From a bacterium (GTDB lineage Bacteria; Eisenbacteria; RBG-16-71-46; CAIMUX01), in contig JAUIHP010000001.1 of NCBI GenBank assembly GCA_030431975.1, positions 62,001-126,000 of the forward strand: a stretch of 64,000 bases of DNA. The letters run 5' to 3'. The notes under the pieces were generated by a model. It saw only the letters and a list, made by a program, of their open reading frames with translations, was not told where the DNA came from and made no database searches. The position numbers were made by a program, and so were the translations under genes. Positions 48,577-51,374 of this stretch are shown in pieces. Numbering within the stretch: position 1 is the stretch's first letter; each line of letters opens with the position of its first letter.

Positions 48577-48698
48577 GCGATCTCCCTTCGTTTCTTCGGC
48601 GGCTGACCGCGATTCTGGAAGACTCACGAACGCCCTACATGCTCAAGCAACGACTTCACCGATGGCCGGTCCGCTGGGTTCTCCGAGGGATGAGCTAG
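48573..48698 (+). pseudogene. 5' remnant of a nucleotidyltransferase gene
   Basis: The 41-codon frame starts with FLRRLTAILEDSRTPYML, which resembles the first helix and the I-P-Y-M-L strand that precedes the GSxA motif of minimal nucleotidyltransferases. At that point (about 48645) the match stops: the expected TGS..S and the catalytic DxD are missing, and the DNA becomes the antisense of the SelL-like gene. It appears to be cut by a deletion or rearrangement. Its tail overlaps the 3' end of the opposing gene. Confidence 0.55.
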
Positions 48699-49208
48699 CA
48701 GCAGCCCCCCATCTGAGTCCACCACGTAGTCCCCACCCAGTTGCTTCCAGTCGATGTCCCCTCGGGTCTTTCTTTGTGGACGATCTCGCAATCGGCCGCG
48801 AACCATTCCCCGGATGTAGGCCCAGATCGTCGCCGGAACGAAGGGCCGCCACCACTCCCCGCCGATCGTCCCGTAGGCTTCATAGAGTCGGCGCTCGGGA
48901 TCGGATACGAAGTGAAACGGCGCCGTGAACGAGTCGGCAAGCCCGCGGAGATCATCTTCCGGCTCGAAGGAAATGACGATCACCTGCAGGTCGTTTCGAT
49001 TCCAGAGTGCGTCCGTCTGCTGCAACTGCAGCAGGTGTTCCCTTCAGGGCAGTCACATCAGGTGACGCAGAAAGATCAGCAGCGTTTTTTGCGTGGGGTT
49101 GGGAACGGCGAGAGACGTTCCCTGAAGCGAGACGGTCTCAAAGGTGGGGGCTTTGGTTCCCGCACGGATGAGATCCGGCGAAACGGAATCCGAGTTTGAC
49201 TCACTCAT
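48624..49208 (-). CDS. Candidate selenoprotein: SelL-type peroxiredoxin-like protein with UxxU motif
   Basis: From ATG 49208 the frame runs 194 codons to 48624 if two UGA codons (49053-49055 and 49044-49046; residues 52 and 55) are read as selenocysteine. The sequence around them is FLRHLMULPUREHLLQLQQ, exactly where relatives have FLRH-G-C-P-F-C-REHL, the redox CxxC of peroxiredoxin-like AhpC/TSA proteins. Downstream the family pattern is intact: VIVISFEPEDDL, FHFVSDPERRLYEAYG, QLGGDYVVDSDGGLLLAHPS and DRPSVKSLL. UxxU forms a diselenide in the SelL family. A perfect hairpin follows the second UGA. Six bases separate the gene from the upstream PLP enzyme gene. A gene-finder would miss the first 61 residues. 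Confidence 0.8.
49017..49034 (-). promoter_or_regulatory. Candidate bacterial SECIS hairpin
   Basis: In the mRNA sense, nine bases after the second UGA, CTGCTGC pairs perfectly with GCAGCAG around an AGTT loop. In the E. coli fdhF SECIS a stem with a G-U-containing loop sits at nearly the same distance. Here the loop G and U are bases 21 and 22 counted from the U of UGA. It lacks the bulged U of the fdhF element. Confidence 0.6.
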
Positions 49209-49214
49209 GTGCCT

Positions 49215-50267
49215 TCATACCTGATCGCGGCCGAGCAGGACGTCCCGGTAGGCAAACGTACTGAAGATTCCACCCGTGTGGACGAAGAGAACCGGGTCGT
49301 CGGCAAACGTGCCCCGCGTCATCTCCTCGACCAATCCGTAGAACGCTTTGCCGGTGTAAACAGGATCGAGAAGGAGCCCCTCCGTTCGGGCCGTCTCCTG
49401 GATGAGTGCGACTTCCTCGGGATAAGGCACCGCGTAGGCGGGACCTTTGTAGCCGTCCAACATTCGGACTTCATCCGACGCAATCGCAGGACGACTCAAG
49501 CCGTCCCAGCCACCTGCAAACTCATCCGCGATGGAAAGAACCTTGTTCCGGAAATATTCGCCATCGTTGCAGACCGGGACGCCCCAGATTCGCAGGTCTT
49601 TGAGACCCAGAAGCTCTCGTCCAAGGTGCAAGCCGGCAAGAGTTCCGCCCGACCCTGTCGCGACGACAACGTGTCGGACCGCCGGACGAACGCCACCCTT
49701 CGAAGACTTGGCCGAAGCGTCCTGAGTCGATGGTGACAGTTCGGCCTGTCCCATCAGTTCGATCAGGAACTGCACATAGCCGACGCTCCCCAGTGCGTTC
49801 GATCCGCCCTCCGGAACGATGTAGGGCCGCCGTCCATCGCCGCGAAGCCGCTCCGCCTCGGTTTCCAGCAGCGAGGCGCGCTCCTCGTACTGCTCCGCAG
49901 TGATGTAGCGCACATCAGCGCCAACCATCGTATCGAGGAAGAGGTTTCCATCCAGGGATTCGGGCTTGGTGCCTCGCAGATAGAGTCGGCTGTCGAGTCC
50001 CAGCCGCCGGGATGCCACGGCGGTGGCCCGACAGTGATTCGACTGGACTCCTCCGCAGGTGAGAACGATGTCGCATTTCTGGTCGAGAGCGTCCCGCAAC
50101 AGAAACTCGAGCTTGCGAACCTTGTTGCCGGAAAGGTCCGCGCCGGTTTCGTCGTCACGTTTGACATAGAGAGGACCCCGCCCGACGCGAGCCTCCGTTC
50201 GGGACAGGCGTTGGATCGGGGTCGGCAGATTGGCCAGCGGAACCCGGGACGGTAGGTCGAGGCTCAT
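49215..50267 (-). CDS. D-cysteine desulfhydrase / ACC deaminase family PLP enzyme
   Basis: This is a 350-residue fold-type II PLP enzyme. It begins with LPTPIQRLSRTEARVGRGPLYVKRDD; the PLP lysine lies in LSGNKVRKLEFLL, and CGGVQSNHCRATA and VATGSGGTLAGL bind cofactor and phosphate. The family includes D-cysteine desulfhydrase (releasing sulfide, pyruvate and ammonia) and ACC deaminase; subgroup not decided. A serine/lysine-rich loop near residues 175-192 is inserted before the TGSGG strand. It starts 12 bases after rseP and ends six bases before the SelL-like gene, so they are probably cotranscribed. Confidence 0.87.
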   Translation of the reverse strand: MSLDLPSRVPLANLPTPIQRLSRTEARVGRGPLYVKRDDETGADLSGNKVRKLEFLLRDALDQKCDIVLTCGGVQSNHCRATAVASRRLGLDSRLYLRGTKPESLDGNLFLDTMVGADVRYITAEQYEERASLLETEAERLRGDGRRPYIVPEGGSNALGSVGYVQFLIELMGQAELSPSTQDASAKSSKGGVRPAVRHVVVATGSGGTLAGLHLGRELLGLKDLRIWGVPVCNDGEYFRNKVLSIADEFAGGWDGLSRPAIASDEVRMLDGYKGPAYAVPYPEEVALIQETARTEGLLLDPVYTGKAFYGLVEEMTRGTFADDPVLFVHTGGIFSTFAYRDVLLGRDQV

Positions 50268-50279
50268 CGTCCCGGCCGG

Positions 50280-51374
50280 CTATCCAAAGAGACCCGCCAC
50301 CTTGGAGAAGAGTCCGACACGCCCCATGTCAAACCAGAGAATCGTCGCCATGAGGACGAGCAGTCCAACCATCCCGACCTGCTGGATTCCGATTTTGACC
50401 TTGGTCGGAATCGGCCGCCCGGCGATGGCCTCGGCCGTGATGAGCACGAGGTGGCCGCCGTCGAGTACGGGGATGGGAAGAATGTTGAGGAATCCAATGT
50501 TGATGCTGATGAAGGCGATGAATCGGGCCAGGGCCACACTCCCCTGTTCCGCGACCTCGCCACTCCACTTCGCGATCATGACCGGACCACCGAGGTCCTT
50601 GACCGTCGCCGCTCCCGTGAAGAGCATTTTGATCGACTTGACCGCCTGCCCGAGAATGAAAAGGGTTTGATCGGTTCCAGACTTGATGGCCGCCAGGAAG
50701 CCCACCTTTTCGTAGCCGTCGATTCCGGGTCCCGCAATGCCGATCAGCCCGATGGTCTCACCGGTGTCCGGGCTCTTTTCCGAGTCCGGCGTCACGGTTG
50801 CGATCTGAGTCTCGCCGTCCCGGATCCATTCGATCTCGAGCGCGACACCCGGATTGCCGTGAATGGTCTCGACCACCTGGGACCAGCTCTCAATGGACGT
50901 GTCTCCAATGCGGACCAGCTTGTCCCCCGCCTGAAGTCCGGCTTCAGCGGCCGGCTTTCCGTCGACCACGGCGGTCGGGATGGCTTCCTCCGACGGAATC
51001 GGTACGCCTTCCTTCAGGGTCAGCCCGGAGTAGATGGCCCAGGCCAGAACGAAGTTCAGAATGACGCCGGCACTGATGACCCAGACCTTCTGGAAGTAGT
51101 TCTTCGACATGAACTCGTCGGGGGCCCCGGTGATGTTTTCCGGGTTGTCCATCGACTCATCGATCATCCCGGCCATCTTCACGTAGCCACCCAGCGGGAT
51201 CCAGGAGAGGCAGTAGTCCGTGTCCCCGAACTTCTTGCCGATCATGCGGGGCGGAAAGCCGACGGAAAACCGCTCGACGCGGATACCGACGGAGCGAGCC
51301 GCGATGAAGTGGCCGAACTCGTGAACAACGACCACGACTCCGATGACGACGAGAAAAGCGAGGATGGTCTCCAT
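50280..51374 (-). CDS. rseP: Site-2 intramembrane metalloprotease RseP
   Basis: This is a 364-residue M50 protease with the zinc motif VVHEFGHF near residue 18, a conserved GPPRMIGKKFGDTDYCLSWIPLGGYVKM-type loop, one PDZ domain (about 125-215; PAAEAGLQAGDKLVRIGD) and the third zinc ligand region LNILPIPVLDGGHL. RseP cleaves membrane anti-sigma factors and signal peptide remnants. The E. coli enzyme has two PDZ domains; one is common elsewhere. It heads the run with the PLP enzyme and SelL-like gene. Confidence 0.95.
   Translation of the reverse strand: METILAFLVVIGVVVVVHEFGHFIAARSVGIRVERFSVGFPPRMIGKKFGDTDYCLSWIPLGGYVKMAGMIDESMDNPENITGAPDEFMSKNYFQKVWVISAGVILNFVLAWAIYSGLTLKEGVPIPSEEAIPTAVVDGKPAAEAGLQAGDKLVRIGDTSIESWSQVVETIHGNPGVALEIEWIRDGETQIATVTPDSEKSPDTGETIGLIGIAGPGIDGYEKVGFLAAIKSGTDQTLFILGQAVKSIKMLFTGAATVKDLGGPVMIAKWSGEVAEQGSVALARFIAFISINIGFLNILPIPVLDGGHLVLITAEAIAGRPIPTKVKIGIQQVGMVGLLVLMATILWFDMGRVGLFSKVAGLFG

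Follow-up and report, generated by a model that had tools for sequence, protein, structure and literature searches.

Selenoprotein L (SelL) is a UxxU selenoprotein of fish and other aquatic organisms, reportedly described by Shchedrina et al. in 2007, and relies on a eukaryotic SECIS together with SBP2. According to one report, the two selenocysteine (Sec, U) residues of eukaryotic (fish) SelL lie two residues apart and are inserted by means of a single SECIS (PMC3316567). In bacteria, a 'Prx-like thiol:disulfide oxidoreductase' (PF00578) has been listed with either a UxxC or a UxxU motif (PMC13188914, PMC9312934), and 'Prx-like 2' sequences with UxxU, belonging to a family tied to pfam04592, have been found in the GOS marine metagenome (PMC2398784).

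Here we describe a gene on the minus strand (48624..49208) of a 64,000-nucleotide stretch of bacterial DNA, hereafter the window, which we consider, with a probability of about 0.93, to encode a genuine double-Sec (UxxU) Prx-like selenoprotein of 194 residues in the SelL-related (PRXL2-like) family, Sec insertion being predicted from the sequence. As in SelL, judged by its description, a Prx-like protein would carry two Sec residues with two residues between them, and a single SECIS is proposed here to serve both; the combination of UxxU with a Prx-like fold that characterizes SelL is present in our protein, the motif by read-through and the fold by prediction. With the bacterial and marine proteins it shares the UxxU motif as listed; the GOS Prx-like 2 family was tied to pfam04592 and not to the NCBIfam family NF040769, whose cut-off our protein exceeds. 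Since UxxU Prx-like selenoproteins have already been listed for bacteria, the gene adds a member to a group that is already recognized. Its unusual features are the U/U motif within the SelL-related family and a candidate bacterial SECIS that might on its own serve two UGA codons.

An open frame interrupted by two UGA codons

Translation from the ATG at 49208 to the terminal TGA at codon 195 (48626-48624) gives M...FLRHLM-U-LP-U-REHLLQLQQ..., with internal TGA triplets only at codon 52 (49053..49055, minus strand) and codon 55 (49044..49046, minus strand), the predicted first and second redox positions. An earlier note on this DNA had described the same intact frame and had foreseen that a conventional annotation would give a headless protein of 133 residues; standard ORF calling does yield only a TTG-started fragment of 133 amino acids (49025..48624, minus strand). 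By codon-usage log-odds, for which nine neighbouring genes formed the training set, codons 1-51 score +13.7 bits and codons 56-194 score +11.7 bits, and the two other sense frames are clearly negative. Per codon, the score 3' of the UGAs is 0.084, below the 0.29-0.59 of the neighbouring genes. The chance of a 192-codon open frame arising from base composition is about 0.003.

The modest codon bias 3' of the UGAs would fit the view that a gene for a CxxC Prx-like protein acquired two nonsense mutations and is decaying, as would the fact that the present gene is the single known copy and is divergent, with a long branch. However, each of the two stops is a TGA, and they occupy exactly the redox positions and no other site; if a Cys ancestor had suffered two nonsense mutations at random, the probability of this outcome would be about 5e-4. 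The frame is otherwise intact and the core FLRH and RE are kept. This placement, with coding signal on both flanks of the UGAs, agrees with the earlier note's view that chance is an unlikely explanation. In addition, the genome decodes Sec and a relative carries UGA at the same first position (see below), and we regard decay to a pseudogene as very improbable.

Alternatively, UGA could stand for a different amino acid (Trp, for example) in this organism or be read by a suppressor, a proposal that has the two in-frame UGAs in its favour and nothing further. Of the nine neighbouring genes used for training, six end in UGA, and Trp is normally encoded by TGG (52 uses), so that UGA has not simply been reassigned; moreover, the in-frame UGAs seen sit on redox Cys positions and the Sec machinery is present. 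The probability of such a reassignment is in our estimate close to nil. On the odds of stop placement and the codon use of the neighbours, respectively, both the pseudogene and the reassignment were judged unlikely, and the double-Sec protein remains the preferred reading.

Selenocysteine decoding in the source genome

The source genome (6.19 Mb, 97% complete) encodes a tRNA-Sec (70.7 bits, anticodon TCA), SelB (366 bits) and SelA (494 bits), the latter two over their cut-offs, and a SelD (373 bits) that itself has one in-frame TGA in the context CAG-U-AS. The complete set of selA, selB, selC and selD, whose detection the earlier note had proposed as a check, is hence found in the same genome, and its inference that UGA is decoded as Sec is further supported by at least three other predicted Sec genes. 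These encode a peroxiredoxin with the motif FTGG-U-TAQC (TxxU; L082, G000:C10:356851-357219), a Prx-like protein with GGW-U-PYC (UxxC; L045, G000:C47:30957-31391) and the SelD mentioned above (L047, G000:C52:182266-183189). Across the phylum, tRNA-Sec is present in 39 of 47 genomes. At a locus of a different genome (L028, G005:C30), a gene for a Prx-like protein with GGW-U-PYC is followed nearby on the same strand by one for a YAG-U-PNC protein, which by eye is thioredoxin-like. As both stops of the gene described here lie on active-site Cys positions and its genome holds the full Sec machinery, the product is very probably a Sec-x-x-Sec redox enzyme.

Relationship to SelL-related redox proteins

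The read-through product scores 133.8 bits against the NF040769 profile 'SelL-related redox protein' (cut-off 120) and also matches AhpC-TSA and AhpC-TSA_2 of Pfam, so that the assignment as SelL-like made in the earlier note stands at the level of 'SelL-related'. A search with the NF040769 profile across 395 Bacteroidota genomes gave eight members above the cut-off (L051-L058), all of the CxxC form with the motif F[LV]RHFG-C-[IV]F-C-RE and none with an in-frame stop. Two weaker SelL-related members from Bacteroidota (L060, L061) are CxxS, the second redox Cys having been lost. Above the cut-off there is also L022, from a genome of the same class as ours (G011), whose motif is FLRHLG-U-IF-C-RE, its single TGA coinciding with U52; G011 likewise has a tRNA-Sec. 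This indicates that Sec at the first redox position recurs in the NF040769 family.

In our alignment (A1), U52 falls on the invariant Cys position in all 11 relatives (UGA in L022), and U55 lies opposite Cys in nine of the 11, the other two having Ser there. The expectation of CxxC at both UGA positions in homologues is thereby borne out, with UxxC in one case and Ser in second place in two, and scattered stops of the random kind that would point to decay are absent from the homologues examined. As to the flanking residues, FLRH before and RE after the motif match as claimed, whereas QLGGD and DRPSV only resemble QLGDG and DRPDY of L051, a likeness given less weight because MAFFT aligns the C-terminal region with gaps. 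Whole-length identity to the relatives is just 18-23% (about 20%), and the case is therefore carried by the motif and the profile score rather than by overall identity. The protein shares with NF040769 members a score beyond the family cut-off, FLRH-xx-C/U-xx-C/U-RE in the same place, its length and its overall layout. It differs in that both redox positions are UGA/Sec, whereas the Bacteroidota proteins examined are CxxC or CxxS and that of G011 is UxxC. In the tree it is placed beside the NF040769 set with support of 93/87, on a long branch that makes its exact place unsure. No other U/U form of the SelL-related family and no close UxxU homologue was detected in the genomes searched; a search of genome contigs returned no close relative, only a TlpA-like protein of Bizionia, and searches of viral contigs, phages and plasmids likewise returned no close relative.

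A candidate SECIS for two UGA codons

Downstream of the two UGAs, a candidate bacterial SECIS hairpin, CUGCUGC-AGUU-GCAGCAG (49017..49034, minus strand; 7 bp, -11.1 kcal/mol), has an AGUU loop in which the second nucleotide is G and the next is U. The distance to this loop is 25 nt from UGA52 and 16 nt from UGA55. The bacterial SECIS model allows loop distances of 16-37 nt (PMC13188914), and the hairpin satisfies this model for both UGAs, although it is not specific by itself. Model hairpins also lie downstream of the UGAs in this genome's SelD and Prx-like genes, their loops at a distance of 20-21 nt, and the UGA of the peroxiredoxin gene has a similar hairpin downstream. The terminal UGA of the UxxU gene itself is not followed by a model hairpin. 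For L022 and for the second Sec gene of L028, scanning under strict criteria gave no hairpin. Throughout the window, hairpins at or below -11 kcal/mol follow 2.5% of all TGAs. Among synonymous recodings with the amino acids fixed, 4.2% have an equally stable model hairpin, a share that falls to 1.2% when the loop must also contain G[G/U]; specificity is limited here because the codons CTG for Leu and CAG for Gln are complementary. The overall folding energy of the 59-nt region after the UGA is unexceptional (z -1.25), and an Rfam scan around the gene found neither a SECIS nor any other credible RNA family. The hairpin alone is weak evidence.

As 16 and 25 nt are both inside the range of 16-37 nt, one SECIS may serve both UGAs. 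It could be instead that only one UGA is decoded efficiently as Sec and that termination or misreading prevails at the second of the pair, whichever that is; the working form would then be rare, or the gene would act as a selenium-gated switch. Distances of 16 and 25 nt, as against 20-21 nt in the two other Sec genes of the genome, would be in keeping with this, and two UGAs in series would be expected to multiply termination losses. Yet both distances fall within the published range (PMC13188914), and eukaryotic SelL obtains a double Sec from a single SECIS, as set out in PMC3316567, albeit with a different SECIS system. Efficient decoding of one UGA only is in our view unlikely, though less so than the pseudogene. 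We lean towards a model in which two UGAs nine bases apart are decoded via one SECIS midway between the optimal spacings, giving a diselenide redox enzyme. Unlike SelL with its eukaryotic SECIS, this gene would use a candidate bacterial hairpin inside the coding region.

Gene neighbourhood

Immediately upstream on the same strand, with a gap of 6 bases, lies a gene for a PLP enzyme of the D-cysteine desulfhydrase family (49215..50267, minus strand; TIGR01275, 313.9 bits, cut-off 289.4), and next upstream one for an RseP-type site-2 metalloprotease (50280..51374, minus strand; TIGR00054, 282.7 bits). The short gap and shared strand make co-transcription plausible, and the D-cysteine desulfhydrase-family gene is a possible operon partner of the UxxU gene. 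The Cys relatives adjoin unrelated genes, which by eye we take to be malate/lactate-dehydrogenase-like and alpha/beta-hydrolase-like, and the neighbourhood therefore gives no conserved functional hint. L022 (G011:C686) is presumably flanked, again by eye, by a MerR/B12-binding-type regulator on one side and a photolyase-like gene on the other, surroundings that suggest a light or oxidative stress setting.

Predicted structure and proposed mechanism

The AlphaFold2 model has a peroxiredoxin fold with a mean pLDDT of 74, residues 1-32 being unreliable. Its best fold match is human prostamide/prostaglandin F synthase (PRXL2B; PDB 9us9 and 9usa; Z 15.7, rmsd 2.8, 147 aligned residues), which is also the best profile match (1.1e-7). 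C44 and C47 of the human enzyme, mutated in 9usa, align with U52 and U55; the human protein differs in having Cys where the bacterial protein has predicted Sec. The latter is probably a reductase of peroxide or disulfide.

We propose that SelB and Sec-tRNA-Sec, recruited by the hairpin just downstream, would insert Sec at UGA52, and that Sec would be inserted by the same route at UGA55, nine bases on, perhaps via the same SECIS. The resulting 194-residue selenoprotein with a peroxiredoxin/thioredoxin fold would have the active site Sec-Leu-Pro-Sec, whose two selenols may cycle between a reduced and a diselenide or selenenic state; a diselenide between the two Sec residues is suggested by analogy with SelL chemistry. 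The selenols may reduce peroxides, endoperoxides or disulfides, and the enzyme may be re-reduced by a thioredoxin-type system or partner.

Implications

Annotation pipelines would record this locus either as a pseudogene or as a headless protein of 133 residues, and such truncation makes the enzyme invisible in databases. If one hairpin does direct Sec insertion at both UGAs, the gene would be a bacterial, coding-region counterpart of the single-SECIS double insertion in fish SelL. The protein, if made, would represent a compact bacterial example of an active site with a natural diselenide, and its gene would offer a clean test of one bacterial SECIS serving two UGAs at different spacings.
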